Position numbers and translations under genes: made by a program
The notes under the pieces: model-generated
What the model was told of the DNA's origin: nothing
The model's database searches: none
The model's input: the letters and a program-made list of their open reading frames with translations, nothing else
Assembly: GCA_015488295.1 (NCBI GenBank)
Contig: WFOC01000070.1
Coordinates: forward strand, 1-45,657
Direction of reading: 5' to 3'
Source: Gammaproteobacteria bacterium
Lineage (GTDB): Bacteria; Pseudomonadota; Gammaproteobacteria; SZUA-229
Length of the DNA: 45,657 bases
Shown here: one piece after another, positions 34,956-41,868 of the stretch
Layout of the letters: the number at the start of each line of letters is the position of its first letter
How positions within the stretch are numbered: the stretch's first letter is position 1

Positions 34956-37898
34956 TTACACTGACTGTTTTTTAGCCCTGATACGCAAGCTATATAAAGC
35001 CGGCAGCAATAACAGCAGCCACGGTGCTGAACCGCCGCCACTGGACGCGGCTTCAGCCACTGATGATGAGACATTGCTCTCATCTGCCAGTGCGATGGTG
35101 TAATAACTGAAGTGCACCGTTCTGAATACCAGGTAGCCATCTTCTTCATCGGTCTGCTTGTTCAGCAGGACGATGTTGGCCGCATCAACCGTTGACCACT
35201 GCTCACCATCGCTGGAAGTGATCAGACGAATTTTATCCAGGCTGGTTTCCGAACCTTTATATGGCAGCTTGACCAGCACACTGGCACTGCCGAAGTTGCT
35301 CACATCGTTGCCACTGCTGTCACTCGCCTGCAATGAGAATACTGATGTATTCAGACCACCGAATCCGGCAGCCGCAGCAGAATTCACCACCGCTTTATCA
35401 GCCAGTGCAATCTTGAACTTATAATCAGGGAACACTCGTTCGGTCTGGCTGTTAACCACCGGCATCACTGCCACCTTGCGTACATCCGGTTCGCCGTACA
35501 CCGGTGCAAACACATACAGTTCATTTCCTGCCTGCTGAACAAGCGTATCGATATGATCCGCCCGGAGTACGCCGGCAAGCGCAGCAGCTTCTACCGTGCT
35601 GTGCCGACTGACCTTGCCAGACATTTCAGATGCTATGTCCGCATTCAATATACTCAGCGAAGGATTAATGCGCGTGCTTTGTAAAATATCCGCCACATTA
35701 ATGGAAACCACGCCGTTGGCATCGACTTTCATATAATCCTTATCCAGCTCGACAATGCCTTCTGTAATCAGGCGCGTATCTGGCAGGGTAAATATGTCCA
35801 GCGAGTTTGTTGTACCAAGCACACTGTCGTCAGCCACCAGCGCACTGAAAGCACCATTCTGTTTCCGCGCATGACAGTCTTCACACTGCAACGACTCCGG
35901 TCCCGGACGGGTGTTGTGGTTCATGATGTACTGGTTTGATTCAGTCAGCACCATGACGGCGTTGGCATTTTCAATACCTTTCATCTTGAACACTTTGTTG
36001 TAGGCGTTACGCAGCGCCAGGTAACCGGCGTAATCTTCCGGATCACCATAACGGATACTGCCATGTGATTCACGCGCACTGACCTGCGCCAGCTCGGCAC
36101 CGGTTTCCGGATCGACAATCACGCCATACATTTCATCCGTCGCCATCACCATGCCAGGCATGGATGTATCGGCACCACGCAACTCAAAAACTTTGTTGCG
36201 CTCGGTTTTGCTCAGGATGGTGCCGGTGTTTTTGTCTTTCCAGTAAGCACGATCACGCTGTGCGTAAGGAATAATACGCAGCTCACCATCTTCTTCCTGA
36301 CGGTAGCGATACAGGATGGGCAAGGTTCTGCCACGCGCAACCTTGTCTGTAATATGGCAGGCCTGACAGGTCATCACATCCAGATGCGTCTGCGTAATGC
36401 GCGACAATGAGTCGGCGGTATAACCAAACATGTCGCCCTGGGTTTTCCAGAGTTGTAAATGCGCATTCAGCATGCTGTCCTGACCGGAAGGAATCGCCGG
36501 TGTTTCTGCATCGTCATGGCAATACACACAACTGCGTGCATTCGGGCTGTAGTCCAGATCGTTACGCAGATCCATATCCGAATTTCCTTTCAGGAAATTA
36601 TGGTTGGCATCGAGATCAACGTTGGCATAATCAGGTTTGTAGTAATTGCGCGAATGACAGGCGTTGCAGTTTTCAATCTGCCGCTCGACACCGTTCTCTG
36701 TCCAGGTCAAACCTTTATGCACATCATCCTTGTAGTCTTCGATCAACAGACCGTCTTCATCATAAGTAGGCGTTGCATCTTCACCAAAACCGTAGAAACC
36801 ACGGCGTGAGTTACTAGTTCTGTGACAGGCCATGCAGTTTTCATTTTCAGGAAAACGCAACATGGGGATGGCCACTTTTTTGTTGGCATCAAACGCATCC
36901 ACATTCCAGTTGATAACAGGGTTCGCATCAGCATCAAGATTCAATGCATAGTTTGGCTCTGTTCGCATGTGGATGGCATCGGGCGATGCCGTGTCGCGAC
37001 TGAAGTTAAGCAGCGTCTTATCGTTCGCCGGATCAGCCGTCATATTCAGATTAAGAAATTCCAGAATGCCGGTGCCGGCATATTTGAAAAAGCCCTCGCG
37101 TACCAGCATGGTACGACGCAGCTCCTTGGCGTGTGCCGGCGCATCACTGGCGGTGTCTTCTCCGGTAAGCGGATCGATAGTCACCAGCTGCGGATCGGTT
37201 TTAACCATCGCGTTTCTATCGGCGTGACAAAGGAAACAATCGGCTTCAACCACGCCGCTTTTTTTCCAGTCCCACTGGGTAACCACATCTTCCTCGGCAG
37301 GCTGATTATTTTCATCCGTACCACGGTTAAAGTAATCACCATCAAACGGTTTTACAGTACTGGCATCGGTTTCATCATAGCGAACACCGTTGCGGTCTTT
37401 CTCCATCCAGCCACCACCGGTGTGGCAACCAACACAACGCTGCACCAGACCAGCTGAACCTTTGTCGGCAAAATCAGACTCACTGGTATTCGATTTTTTC
37501 GCCAGGCGATCCGGGTTACTGCTACCCATGCAGTTATAACCACCGAAATATCCCGGTGACACAAGAATTGGCACACCATGATTTTTACCAAAATTATCGT
37601 CCGCTTCATCCCGGCCCATTTCGAAATGGAAAGCGGATGTAATTGACTCGTAGTCATGACAACCCGAAGTACCACAGGTTGTTTTTGAACTATAAGGCTG
37701 ACCACTGTCCAACACATGGTTGCCCTGCTCATCAAGTATCGGTATCGCCGGATGCAACACAGGTGCAGCCTGAAGCTGCATAGCCGTCAGCGATAAAAGC
37801 AGAGCGATTAAAAATCTTGAAAAAATATTTTTACGGCCAACGTCCTTGCCAGGATTTATAACACTACCGGTAGCACCGGCCAATACATCAGTTTTCAT
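34956..37898 (-). CDS. Large octahaem c-type cytochrome with GlyGly-CTERM-like tail
   Basis: The 980-residue protein, first in the operon, has a long N-region then a hydrophobic signal ending near LQA (about residue 44). It has seven CxxCH motifs (CVGCH, CFLCH, CMACH, CNACH, CVYCH, CQACH, CEDCH) and one CX4CH (CGTSGCH, about residue 76), spread over residues 76-680. A Cys-poor C-terminal domain ends SSGGGSAPWLLLLLPALYSL followed by basic residues, as in GlyGly-CTERM sorting signals cut by rhombosortase and linked to type II secretion. It is the best candidate for a surface-exposed terminal cytochrome. Confidence 0.9.
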   Translation of the reverse strand: MKTDVLAGATGSVINPGKDVGRKNIFSRFLIALLLSLTAMQLQAAPVLHPAIPILDEQGNHVLDSGQPYSSKTTCGTSGCHDYESITSAFHFEMGRDEADDNFGKNHGVPILVSPGYFGGYNCMGSSNPDRLAKKSNTSESDFADKGSAGLVQRCVGCHTGGGWMEKDRNGVRYDETDASTVKPFDGDYFNRGTDENNQPAEEDVVTQWDWKKSGVVEADCFLCHADRNAMVKTDPQLVTIDPLTGEDTASDAPAHAKELRRTMLVREGFFKYAGTGILEFLNLNMTADPANDKTLLNFSRDTASPDAIHMRTEPNYALNLDADANPVINWNVDAFDANKKVAIPMLRFPENENCMACHRTSNSRRGFYGFGEDATPTYDEDGLLIEDYKDDVHKGLTWTENGVERQIENCNACHSRNYYKPDYANVDLDANHNFLKGNSDMDLRNDLDYSPNARSCVYCHDDAETPAIPSGQDSMLNAHLQLWKTQGDMFGYTADSLSRITQTHLDVMTCQACHITDKVARGRTLPILYRYRQEEDGELRIIPYAQRDRAYWKDKNTGTILSKTERNKVFELRGADTSMPGMVMATDEMYGVIVDPETGAELAQVSARESHGSIRYGDPEDYAGYLALRNAYNKVFKMKGIENANAVMVLTESNQYIMNHNTRPGPESLQCEDCHARKQNGAFSALVADDSVLGTTNSLDIFTLPDTRLITEGIVELDKDYMKVDANGVVSINVADILQSTRINPSLSILNADIASEMSGKVSRHSTVEAAALAGVLRADHIDTLVQQAGNELYVFAPVYGEPDVRKVAVMPVVNSQTERVFPDYKFKIALADKAVVNSAAAAGFGGLNTSVFSLQASDSSGNDVSNFGSASVLVKLPYKGSETSLDKIRLITSSDGEQWSTVDAANIVLLNKQTDEEDGYLVFRTVHFSYYTIALADESNVSSSVAEAASSGGGSAPWLLLLLPALYSLRIRAKKQSV

Positions 37899-38601: not shown

Positions 38602-38615
38602 TTGATCTGGATCAA
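38602..38615 (+). promoter_or_regulatory. Perfect FNR/ANR box upstream of nrdD
   Basis: TTGATCTGGATCAA matches TTGAT-N4-ATCAA exactly. With the site at -41.5 the start would be near 38650, and an AT-rich -10 (AATATAT) sits at about 38634-38640. The position predicts activation of the riboswitch-nrdD transcript without oxygen. Confidence 0.8.
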
Positions 38616-38659
38616 ATAATCAAAAAACCAATCAATATATGGTGCGTACCTTAGTAACA

Positions 38660-38780
38660 AACCCAACATGTAGTGCCTGTTGGGAACGCAGGGGAATCCG
38701 GTGAAAATCCGGAGCTGTCGCGCAACGGTCACAGAGCCAGGCTAGCAATAGATCGCTCTTGAAGCCCGAATACCTGCCTG
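38660..38780 (+). ncRNA. Cobalamin riboswitch controlling nrdD
   Basis: The core has the B12 hallmarks: AGTGCCTGTTGGGAACGC, GGGGAATCCGGTGAAAATCC, then GGAGCTGTCGCGCAACGGT (the B12 box) and GAGCCAGG...ACCTGCC near the end. It lies upstream of the B12-independent ribonucleotide reductase and is followed at once by a terminator, as expected for a switch that stops transcription when cobalamin is present. The exact ends are approximate. Confidence 0.88.
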
Positions 38781-38805
38781 CAAATGCTTCGGCGTTTGTT
38801 TTTTT
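38781..38805 (+). terminator. Riboswitch terminator
   Basis: CAAATGC and GCGTTTG form a 7-bp stem (one G-T pair) capped by a TTCG tetraloop, followed by seven T. It directly follows the riboswitch core and precedes the nrdD start by about 105 bases, so it is probably the expression platform. Confidence 0.8.
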
Positions 38806-38910
38806 CCTATGGTCTCGCGTAAAGTCCCGGAAAGGTCGATGATAAAAATTTCAGCTGCCTGCCCGCCTGCGCGTCTCCTGTCATTATAAAAATCATAAAG
38901 GGGAAGCAAA

Positions 38911-41013
38911 ATGTCTTTAGACACCGATGTCAGTGAAAAACTGGCAAACATCATCAATGATCAACACGCGCTGGCATACCGGCTGCCACGCCGTATTCGC
39001 AAACGTGATGGCCGCGAACAGGCCTTCGACAGCGCACGCATCGAGCAGGCCATTTTAAAAGCCGCGCAATCAACCGGCGAGTTTTCTCAGACCGAGGCGC
39101 AGTTAATCTGCACCCACGTACTCAAGGTGCTGGCACACCTCAACGATGACACACCCGGCATCGAGCGTATTCAGGATACCGTGGAGCAGGTGCTGATCAG
39201 CGCCAACTATCTGAAAACCGCTCGCGCCTATATTGTTTATCGCGAACAGCACCAACGCCTGCGCGAAGACAAGAAAACTCTGGTCGATGTCTCACACGCG
39301 GTGAATGAATACCTTGATCGTGCCGACTGGCGGGTATCAGCAAACGCCAACCAGGGTTATTCGCTGGGCGGCCTGATTCTCAACAGCGCGGGAAAGATCA
39401 TCGCCAACTACTGGCTCAGCCACGTTTACCCACCCGCCATCGGCGAGGCCCACCGCACCGGTGACATTCATATCCACGACCTGGACATGCTCAGCGGCTA
39501 TTGCGCCGGCTGGTCGTTGCGCACCCTGCTCAACGAAGGCCTGAACGGGGTACCGGGACAGGTCGAGTCTGCACCACCAAAACACATGTCCAGCGCCATC
39601 GGCCAGATCGTGAATTTTCTCGGCACATTGCAAAACGAATGGGCCGGCGCACAGGCTTTCAGTTCCTTCGATACTTACATGGCTGCCTTTGTGCGCAAGG
39701 ACAAGCTGAATTATTCACAGGTGCGGCAATACATGCAGGAGCTGATCTACAACCTCAACGTGCCTTCACGCTGGGGCACGCAAACCCCGTTCACCAACCT
39801 GACCTTCGACTGGGTTTGCCCGGAAGACCTGCGTGAACAGATTCCACTGATCGGCGGTGAAGAAATGCCGTTCAGTTACGGCGACCTACAGGAAGAAATG
39901 GACCTGATCAACCGCGCGTATATCGAAGTGATGAGTGAAGGCGATGCCAAAGGCCGGGTTTTCACTTTCCCGATTCCAACCTACAACATCACTCCCGATT
40001 TTCCCTGGCACAGTGAAAACGCCGACCGCCTGTTCGAGATGACCGCCAAATACGGCCTGCCCTATTTCCAGAATTTCCTTAACTCATCACTGAAACCGAA
40101 CATGGTGCGCTCCATGTGCTGCCGCCTGCAACTCGACCTGCGCGAGCTGCTAAAACGCGGCAACGGCCTGTTCGGCTCGGCCGAGCAAACCGGCTCACTG
40201 GGCGTGGTCACCATCAACTGCGCACGACTGGGTTACCTGCACAAGGGCGACAAAGCCGGTCTGCTGAAAGCACTGGATCATCTGCTGGAGCTGGGCCGCG
40301 ACAGCCTGGAAATCAAACGCAAGGTTATTCAACGCCACATGGATGCCGGCCTGTTCCCCTACACCAAACGCTATCTGGGCACACTGCGAAATCATTTTTC
40401 GACGCTGGGAGTCAACGGCATCAACGAAATGATCCGCAACTTCAGCGATGATAAGGACGACATCACCACAGAATACGGCCACACCTTCGCGCTGGATCTG
40501 CTCGACCACATCCGCGCCCGCATGACCGAGTTTCAGGAAAGCACCGGCCACATGTACAACCTGGAAGCCACCCCTGCCGAAGGCACCACTTACCGTTTCG
40601 CCAAGGAAGACCGCAAGCGTTACGCCGATATTCTGCAGGCCGGCAGCGAGGAAAAACCCTACTACACCAACTCGTCACAGTTGCCAGTGGGGTTCACCGA
40701 CGATGCTTTCGAGGCACTGGAGCGGCAACAGACGCTACAATCCAAATACACCGGCGGCACCGTGTTGCACCTTTATATGAGCGAACGCCTTTCCAGCGGC
40801 GAAGCCTGCCGCCGCCTGGTAAAACGTTCACTGAGCAATTTCCGCCTGCCCTACATAACCATCACACCGACATTTTCCATTTGTCCCAGCCACGGTTATC
40901 TTAGCGGCGAACATGAATTCTGCCCGAAATGCGATCAGGAAATCATTCACAAAAAACAACAAGAAATCAATAACAACAACGATGAGGAGTTACGCCATGC
41001 AAACACAAACTGA
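38911..41013 (+). CDS. nrdD: Anaerobic (class III) ribonucleoside-triphosphate reductase, catalytic part
   Basis: The 700-residue enzyme makes deoxyribonucleoside triphosphates without oxygen. An ATP-cone (RKRDGREQAFDSARIEQAIL, about residue 30) regulates activity; the barrel follows, with MCCRLQLDLREL near residue 405 and a zinc-type end (CPSHGYLSGEHEFCPKC, about 668-684). Unlike standard NrdD it stops after an Asn-rich tail and lacks the glycyl-radical loop, which a separate overlapping gene supplies. It starts with AAGGGGAAGC. Upstream control is an FNR box and a cobalamin riboswitch. Confidence 0.93.
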   Translation: MSLDTDVSEKLANIINDQHALAYRLPRRIRKRDGREQAFDSARIEQAILKAAQSTGEFSQTEAQLICTHVLKVLAHLNDDTPGIERIQDTVEQVLISANYLKTARAYIVYREQHQRLREDKKTLVDVSHAVNEYLDRADWRVSANANQGYSLGGLILNSAGKIIANYWLSHVYPPAIGEAHRTGDIHIHDLDMLSGYCAGWSLRTLLNEGLNGVPGQVESAPPKHMSSAIGQIVNFLGTLQNEWAGAQAFSSFDTYMAAFVRKDKLNYSQVRQYMQELIYNLNVPSRWGTQTPFTNLTFDWVCPEDLREQIPLIGGEEMPFSYGDLQEEMDLINRAYIEVMSEGDAKGRVFTFPIPTYNITPDFPWHSENADRLFEMTAKYGLPYFQNFLNSSLKPNMVRSMCCRLQLDLRELLKRGNGLFGSAEQTGSLGVVTINCARLGYLHKGDKAGLLKALDHLLELGRDSLEIKRKVIQRHMDAGLFPYTKRYLGTLRNHFSTLGVNGINEMIRNFSDDKDDITTEYGHTFALDLLDHIRARMTEFQESTGHMYNLEATPAEGTTYRFAKEDRKRYADILQAGSEEKPYYTNSSQLPVGFTDDAFEALERQQTLQSKYTGGTVLHLYMSERLSSGEACRRLVKRSLSNFRLPYITITPTFSICPSHGYLSGEHEFCPKCDQEIIHKKQQEINNNNDEELRHANTN

Positions 41014-41158
41014 GATCAAACTGAAAGACGAAGAACGCACACGCTGCGAAGTATGGACACGGGTCATGGGTTACCATCGCCCGGTCGCCGCCTGGAACCC
41101 CGGTAAACAGTCAGAACACCAGGAGCGGGATTTCTTCAAGGAGACGAAAACATCGTGA
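40997..41158 (+). CDS. Separate glycyl-radical tail of class III ribonucleotide reductase
   Basis: A 53-residue peptide beginning MQTQTEIKLKDEERTRCEVW and containing RVMGYHRPVAAWNPGKQSEH. This is the conserved end of NrdD, with the radical Gly at residue 25. It overlaps nrdD by 17 bases in another frame and has its own GAGGAG Shine-Dalgarno 7 bases before ATG 40997, so it is translated separately. Its stop overlaps the GTG start of nrdG. It would need to dock onto NrdD and be activated by NrdG, as GrcA (YfiD) serves pyruvate formate-lyase. Confidence 0.88.
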   Translation: MQTQTEIKLKDEERTRCEVWTRVMGYHRPVAAWNPGKQSEHQERDFFKETKTS

Positions 41159-41868
41159 GTAGCCCGGTTGAATTCGAGCCGGTGTCATTTCGTGTGGGCG
41201 GCTTCGTGCCGCTCACCACGGTGGATTATCCCGGCGAACTGTCGGCGGTGATCTTCGCCCAGGGATGCCCCTGGCGCTGCCGCTATTGCCACAACCCGGA
41301 TCTGCTACCGGCACGCAGTGACAAGTCGCTGCCATGGTCGGACATTATGCAAACCCTGGAGCGCCGACGCGGACTGCTCGACGCGGTGGTTTTTTCCGGC
41401 GGCGAACCGGTGATGCAGGCCAGCATACGCGATGCCATTCATCAGGTAAAAGCACTGGGTTTCAAGGTCGGCCTGCACAGCGCCGGTATTTACCCGAAAC
41501 GCCTGGCCAAACTATTGCCGCTGATCGACTGGATTGGTCTGGACGTAAAGGCGCTGCCGGCAAATTATCCCGGCATCACCACGGTGCATGCCAGTGGTCG
41601 GGCGGCGTGGGCAAGTGTGGCACAGGTGCTGGCCAGCAAGGTAGCACACCAGTTTCGCATCACCGTGCATCCCGCACTGACATCGAACGAACAGGCCGAT
41701 GAAATCGAGCAGCGACTGCTGGCACTGGGCGCACAGGACGTGGTGAAACAGCCGGTTCGCACCGAACACTGCTTTGATCCCTCACTGCAGGGTTACCCGG
41801 AAACAGCGGTTAAAGCGCCGGTTAAAACACCGAAGCCGGCCGATACCTCAATAGAGGTTCTGGCCTAG
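41155..41868 (+). CDS. nrdG: Anaerobic ribonucleotide reductase activase (radical SAM)
   Basis: The 237-residue protein has the radical-SAM motif CPWRCRYCHNP (CX3CX2C, residues about 38-48) and a GGEP-type motif (VVFSGGEPVM), and matches NrdG-type activating enzymes that make the glycyl radical on NrdD. GTG 41155 overlaps the stop of the glycyl-radical peptide gene and has AAGGAGAC upstream. The C-terminal 25 residues form a Pro/Lys-rich tail. It is the last gene of the operon and is followed by a bidirectional terminator. Confidence 0.92.
   Translation: MSSPVEFEPVSFRVGGFVPLTTVDYPGELSAVIFAQGCPWRCRYCHNPDLLPARSDKSLPWSDIMQTLERRRGLLDAVVFSGGEPVMQASIRDAIHQVKALGFKVGLHSAGIYPKRLAKLLPLIDWIGLDVKALPANYPGITTVHASGRAAWASVAQVLASKVAHQFRITVHPALTSNEQADEIEQRLLALGAQDVVKQPVRTEHCFDPSLQGYPETAVKAPVKTPKPADTSIEVLA

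Follow-up and report, generated by a model that had tools for sequence, protein, structure and literature searches.

Coenzyme B12 reportedly controls a B12-independent ribonucleotide reductase (RNR) through a riboswitch on Streptomyces nrdABS (work attributed to Borovok, 2006), an arrangement like the one proposed below except that the Streptomyces target is a class Ia enzyme. For the class III enzyme the closest precedents come from several other bacteria. In the delta-proteobacteria, B12-repressed nrdDG genes beside nrdJ were already proposed in 2004 (PMC545781): as at our locus, Desulfovibrio vulgaris and Desulfuromonas have a B12-element before the class III RNR together with an NrdJ, and the same isozyme logic applies, whereas the available text mentions neither of the FNR and NrdR layers that are found here. 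In Propionibacterium acnes, a cobalamin riboswitch and NrdR boxes occur on both nrdAB and nrdDG, and NrdJ is present (PMC3848588), again as in our genome; however, the NrdR boxes of the P. acnes nrdDG are located far 3′ of the active promoter, whereas ours overlap the inferred promoter and adjoin the aptamer, and no FNR input is mentioned in the available text of that report. The nrdD promoter of Pseudomonas aeruginosa likewise bears NrdR boxes in a genome with NrdJ, and its expression is higher without oxygen (PMC4409342); the available account of a B12 effect on the nrd genes of this organism describes it as riboswitch-independent (PMC5962746), unlike the riboswitch that we propose. More generally, cobalamin regulons are described as including isozymes of B12-dependent enzymes (PMC3766115). 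On the RNA side, the AdoCbl-II/AdoCbl-variant family RF01689 (PMC2864571) is a compact aptamer like ours, and its model passes the cut-off here from position 38677; it is listed as marine, and the accessible description does not mention RNR leaders with NrdR boxes, which is what our locus offers.

Here we consider the window, i.e., the whole stretch of 45,657 nucleotides of a gammaproteobacterial contig (WFOC01000070.1) that was analysed, in which an initial annotation had read the segment upstream of nrdD–nrdG (38602–38805) as a two-input gate for oxygen and B12. The core of that logic is mostly right, being sound and biologically sensible, but it is not new: a B12 riboswitch before nrdDG has been known since 2004. 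By comparison, the compact form directly behind NrdR boxes seems to be undescribed, and we found no description of compact cobalamin aptamers adjoining NrdR boxes in the open-licence literature. The oxygen and B12 elements of the gate, as well as NrdJ and Fnr, are all found, but the gate has to be counted as having three inputs rather than two because an NrdR operator pair is also present. Hence, the nrdD–nrdG control region probably stacks oxygen (via Fnr), dNTP (via NrdR) and B12 (via the riboswitch).

In the scheme that we propose, Fnr bound at about −41.5 would start nrdD transcription only without oxygen, and NrdR, occupying boxes 31 bp apart that cover the −10 element and the first transcribed bases, would repress it when dNTPs are plentiful. 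At its 5′ end the nrdD mRNA would then carry a cobalamin riboswitch of the compact, P1-less AdoCbl-II type, in which the binding of cobalamin would lead to formation of an L5–L13 kissing loop and a fall in nrdD expression, and the cell would therefore use the B12-dependent NrdJ. The predicted sign of this response, with B12 lowering nrdD, follows from the isozyme logic. If the scheme is true, it would show how a single short leader, on which oxygen, dNTP and cofactor signals are stacked, lets bacteria with all three RNR classes choose among them.

The nrdD–nrdG locus

All coordinates refer to the window and, unless stated otherwise, to its plus strand. The nrdD gene (38911–41013) codes for a class III RNR (NF006126, 1145 bits; TIGR02487, 455 bits; PF13597) without the C-terminal glycyl-radical piece. 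The latter is encoded by a separate small ORF (40997–41158) that overlaps the end of nrdD, carries the glycyl-radical motif RVMGY and was recognized from the C-terminal positions 532–561 of PF13597 and its frame relation; it is followed by nrdG (41155–41868), coding for the NrdD activase (TIGR02495 NrdG2, 196 bits against a cut-off of 131). In a survey of 82 loci, comprising 80 relatives, the window and a second genome of the same order (G033), the motif has its own ORF in 78 and lies within the nrdD frame in none, the other loci being three in which it was not found and one that was cut off. Among the relatives this ORF is seen in all three frames relative to nrdD, for which reason a split gene is a better fit than a frameshift, and the two genes look like an apparently stable two-gene enzyme. 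A programmed frameshift at the end of nrdD was considered and ruled out on the same ground.

Directly 5′ of the nrdD promoter and in the same direction lies a gene for a BFD-like [2Fe-2S] small protein (PF04324; 38227–38466). Farther upstream, the minus strand codes for a multihaem cytochrome of 980 aa that has an MtrC/MtrF-like domain (34956–37898).

The promoter and its FNR and NrdR boxes

The perfect FNR box that had been noticed upstream of nrdD, TTGATCTGGATCAA at 38602–38615 (centre 38608.5), is present in a single copy in the window, where 0.07 would be expected by shuffling. Reading of the sequence offers TATATG (38636–38641) or TATGGT (38638–38643) as candidates for the −10 element, from which we infer a transcription start at 38648–38650, with the FNR box then centred at −39.5 or −41.5. 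The claim that the box stands at an activating distance would hold with TATGGT, which places the start at 38650 and the box at −41.5, but a sigma-70 consensus scan returned no passing consensus promoter at the nrdD leader. The Fnr protein itself is encoded in the genome (NF008365, 257.6 bits against 228), with a CSECNLRELC stretch and the residues ETVSR.

The control elements recognized initially, namely the FNR box, aptamer and terminator, are real, but a tandem pair of NrdR boxes at 38630–38676 had been missed. NrdR-like box 1, AATCAATATATGGTGC (38630–38645), overlaps the −10 element, and box 2, ACCCAACATGTAGTGC (38661–38676), which was picked up in the NrdR box scan, ends at the start of the aptamer, so that the pair adjoins the latter. 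Each box matches the consensus at only 12 of 16 positions, and the pair score of 24/32 at a spacing of 31 bp was reached by none of 500 dinucleotide shuffles; a tandem arrangement about three helical turns apart is that of the NrdR regulon. Indeed, among 81 upstream regions (79 nrdD relatives, the window and G033) pair scores of 25 or more are found in 24 regions at spacing 31 and in 14 at spacing 32, against 0–8 regions at each of the other spacings within 26 to 37. The NrdR protein (TIGR00244) was not found in the window's genome, an 88%-complete assembly, and is present in G033. In front of the nrdA of the window's genome stands a strong NrdR pair (spacing 32), unaccompanied by any riboswitch match.

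These elements recur beyond our locus. In 80 upstream regions (79 relatives plus the window), boxes of the form TTGAYNNNNRTCAA precede nrdD in 32, as against 0.05 expected per shuffled set; an NrdR pair scoring 24 or more is seen in 51, and both elements in 27. In 10 of these two-element regions the FNR box and NrdR box 1 are separated by a step of 28 or 29 bp, the step in the window being 28. A comparable layout, combining one FNR-like and one NrdR-like box with a short leader, lies upstream of nrdD in a Lamellibrachia endosymbiont. Because both the elements and their step recur in this way, the window's promoter resembles the usual nrdD promoter of the relatives, a riboswitch apparently having been inserted between promoter and gene. 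The nrdD leader of G033 has no good FNR box (the best has two mismatches), and hence the combination of FNR box and riboswitch rests on one genome; in the set of 30 compact-aptamer leaders described below, a perfect FNR box is likewise found in the window's alone.

A compact cobalamin aptamer

The cobalamin riboswitch posited upstream of nrdD was recovered by two Rfam models, each above its gathering cut-off: RF00174 at 38623–38795 (42.2 bits against 31.5) and RF01689 (AdoCbl-II) at 38677–38783 (37.5 bits against 36.5). A third model, RF01482 (AdoCbl), has no match at E 0.001 in the window's genome; seven of the nine genomes searched with it have a match, one of them over the cut-off. The compact core of AdoCbl-II type (38677–38783), delineated by RF01689 and by covariation in 9 and 31 sequences, consists of P3 (38688–38692/38773–38777), P4 (38697–38701/38709–38713), P5 with the loop L5 CGCG (38719–38722) and the base of P6 (38726–38728/38766–38768). 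It is complemented downstream by the hairpin P13 (38811–38827), whose loop L13 CGCG (38816–38819) is complementary to L5 and may form a kissing loop with it. All five P13 pairs are changed on both sides among 31 sequences, and the window's stem has one U·U mismatch; the CGCG pairs of L5 and L13 are invariant, and covariation is therefore mute on the kissing itself. Thus, the elements placed within 38602–38805 stand, but the riboswitch extends past that boundary to a hairpin that had been overlooked.

The start site placed by the FNR box, at about 38650, falls inside the RF00174 match, whose P1/P2 portion would consequently stay untranscribed, and several pairs of the P1 closing helix are non-standard in the alignment; together these two points argue for an aptamer smaller than the Rfam outline. 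The P1/P2 segment (38623 to about 38676) was accordingly rejected as RNA, since it reads as promoter DNA with NrdR boxes, and RF01689 starts at 38677. As far as its sequence tells, the nrdD aptamer is a compact, P1-less AdoCbl-II-type RNA and a predicted binder of cobamides. The end-to-end alignment of RF00174 over 38623–38795 would suit the contrary interpretation of a full-length, class I aptamer, whose P1/P2 would belong to a transcript started farther upstream, with the FNR box in a repressing position. We consider this highly improbable, given the non-standard P1 pairs, the RF01689 match that passes its own cut-off from 38677, and an FNR–NrdR spacing that matches that of relatives without any riboswitch. 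Improbable too is the notion that the aptamer has decayed and no longer responds to a ligand: the low RF00174 score of 42.2 bits and the U·U mismatch in P13 are what decay might leave behind, but core and kissing loops (L5 and L13) alike conform to the family, and the same aptamer is present in a second nrdD leader, that of G033.

The terminator, the Shine-Dalgarno hairpin and the proposed B12 read-out

The TTCG-capped terminator described after the riboswitch is confirmed as an intrinsic terminator at 38780–38805, with an 8-bp stem, a UUCG tetraloop and a U tract (−8.4 kcal/mol; predicted probability 0.94 on folding). Constrained folding forms it with or without an imposed aptamer core, and yields no competing antiterminator when either the core is imposed or the terminator banned. 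Within the leader it precedes P13, and among 30 homologous leaders a U-tailed hairpin is found in one, the window's, so that the terminator was probably acquired locally; an expression platform is not usually ordered in this way, with the terminator between the aptamer core and the kissing-loop hairpin. While the terminator is real, a further leader element had gone unnoticed before the start codon: in the hairpin at 38874–38904, UCUCCU (38874–38879) pairs with the Shine-Dalgarno sequence AGGGGA (38899–38904) with a pair probability of 0.78–0.88.

Taken as the B12 read-out, termination fares poorly against these same three observations, i.e., the missing antiterminator, the placement ahead of P13 and the occurrence in one of 30 leaders. 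A switch in which cobalamin binding frees the terminator, with an antiterminator forming in its absence, does draw some appeal from a strong U-tract terminator beginning 3 bases past the 3′ strand of P3. The repeated CCUGC (38773–38777 and 38777–38781) could also, on a reading of the sequence, allow a shifted P3 register in which the lowest two bases of the terminator stem would be taken up. Nevertheless, the switch would need to operate before P13 has been transcribed, the nascent-RNA fold contains no competing structure and is otherwise unchanged by the terminator ban, and the homologous leaders do not have this terminator; we regard such a switch as unlikely. A more serious possibility, if one still short of probable, is that the terminator is a fixed attenuator and that B12 control is purely translational, via P13 and the hairpin that sequesters the Shine-Dalgarno sequence. 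The pairing of the latter with UCUCCU, the folding of a Shine-Dalgarno hairpin in two other leaders (G051 and G052) and the status of P13 as a covarying element of the aptamer family are all consistent with it, but no anti-anti-Shine-Dalgarno element linking P13 to the hairpin was identified, and the Shine-Dalgarno sequence is paired in both imposed states. Given the position and rarity of the terminator, the lack of an antiterminator and the hidden Shine-Dalgarno sequence, we retain the reading in which the B12 switch could act at the terminator, at the Shine-Dalgarno sequence or at both; translational control is favoured as the inherited mode, to which the terminator would have been added here, since the homologues have P13 and no terminator.

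The B12-dependent counterpart, NrdJ

A class II reductase had been predicted to reside elsewhere in the genome, and a profile search located it: an intein-interrupted NrdJ_Z (TIGR02504, 553 bits against a cut-off of 400), accompanied by a separate NrdJb, provides the B12-dependent counterpart to nrdD in the same genome. NrdJ is also present in G033. The intein of the window's NrdJ gene (L004, 1159–4476) contains a LAGLIDADG domain, and NrdJ matches are broken at about the same place in four other genomes (G143, G254, G291 and G321); an NrdJ intein is reported from Azotobacter chroococcum (PMC4465626).

Across the class, NrdJ is found in 20 of the 22 genomes with a listed compact aptamer before nrdA (the exceptions being G368 and G257), in 15 at E 1e-125 and in five more in pieces or across an intein. 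At the single strict threshold the association is weak (15/22 versus 159/347, Fisher p 0.048). The background of at least 174 of 369 genomes at E 1e-125 is a lower bound because this threshold missed intein-split NrdJ, the window's genome among them, with split genes rechecked in 15 genomes only.

A family of compact aptamers in Gammaproteobacteria

The weak RF00174 matches of the order (28–57 bits) have three features in common: CUGUCGCGCA(A/G)CGGU, a stretch UCCG...ACCUG and, downstream, a hairpin whose loop contains CGCG. In the order this motif precedes nrdA (four genomes), a CWC cysteine-rich gene (three genomes, with the gene's identity from Pfam runs on two of the three) and nrdD (two). 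In alignment A1, of nine sequences, 6 of 23 pairs are changed on both sides, a figure reached by none of 500 shuffles; among 31 aligned matches, in an alignment fitted to our model R1, the same is true of 13 of 19 pairs (alignment A2 includes one spurious antisense row, of 16.8 bits). Model R1, which was trained on the window and G033 among others, so that its score at the window is by construction, matches 86 of the 369 genomes of the class at an E value of 0.001 or below. Of its top 30 class loci (L102–L131), 22 lie before nrdA, one before nrdD (the window), two before BtuB, one before CobN and four have no identified gene. Placement of the compact aptamer immediately after NrdR boxes is thus widespread upstream of class I nrdA in Gammaproteobacteria.

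For the NrdR boxes we compared 30 leaders (25 nrdA, three CWC and two nrdD), leaving aside the two BtuB, one CobN and four unassigned loci of L102–L131 and the duplicate L088. Pairs scoring 24 or more occur in 11 leaders at spacing 31, in seven at spacing 32 and in 0–2 at the others. In the 25 nrdA leaders, the end of NrdR box 2 of the best pair lies anywhere from 28 bases upstream of the R1 model start to 7 bases within the model. No NrdR pair was found in any of the three CWC leaders (best score 17–18).

On this basis we tentatively suggest, as a possible rather than a probable generalization, a conserved composite leader of Gammaproteobacteria in which a transcribed NrdR box 2 runs into a P1-less AdoCbl-II riboswitch. 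Such a leader would be a movable RNR-control cassette responding to dNTPs and B12, common on class I nrdA, taken over by nrdD in the order and combined here with an FNR promoter and with a terminator between core and P13. A compact RNR-associated family of B12 switches that the main cobalamin model of Rfam scores weakly also matters for annotation: surveys of B12 regulation may misplace the 5′ boundary of compact switches, or miss them, because RF00174 is weak on them and, in the window at least, aligns into promoter DNA.

The CWC-gene loci L087, L089 and L091, without NrdR boxes, come from three genomes of one genus and have an ABC-type ATPase gene downstream, assigned by reading. At L124, L125 and L128, in three genomes of a single genus, the compact aptamer has no recognized downstream gene.

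Occurrence upstream of nrdD

At Rfam gathering scores, a cobalamin match lies upstream of nrdD in one of 79 relatives (L066), L076 having been left out of the Rfam and upstream counts for its short upstream DNA. The L066 element (2151–2349), from an alphaproteobacterial MAG, is a full-length aptamer (RF00174, 122.9 bits) that precedes nrdD and has no FNR box nearby. When model R1 was applied to 80 relatives, the window and G033, two sequences matched under E 0.01, those of the window and of G033, both of which are training sequences; a short motif in L059 was set aside as a further riboswitch, being unsupported by Rfam and R1. NrdD itself was found in two of the 54 genomes of the order, the window's and G033; each has the aptamer immediately upstream of the gene and also encodes NrdJ, and the compact aptamer is seen on nrdD only in these two. 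As to separate origins of their nrdD genes, an AU test does not reject a single clade (p 0.296; G033 is a long branch); a quick nrdD tree, with L045 omitted, separates them, placing the window's with L005 (support 99) and that of G033 with Thioalkalivibrio (92).
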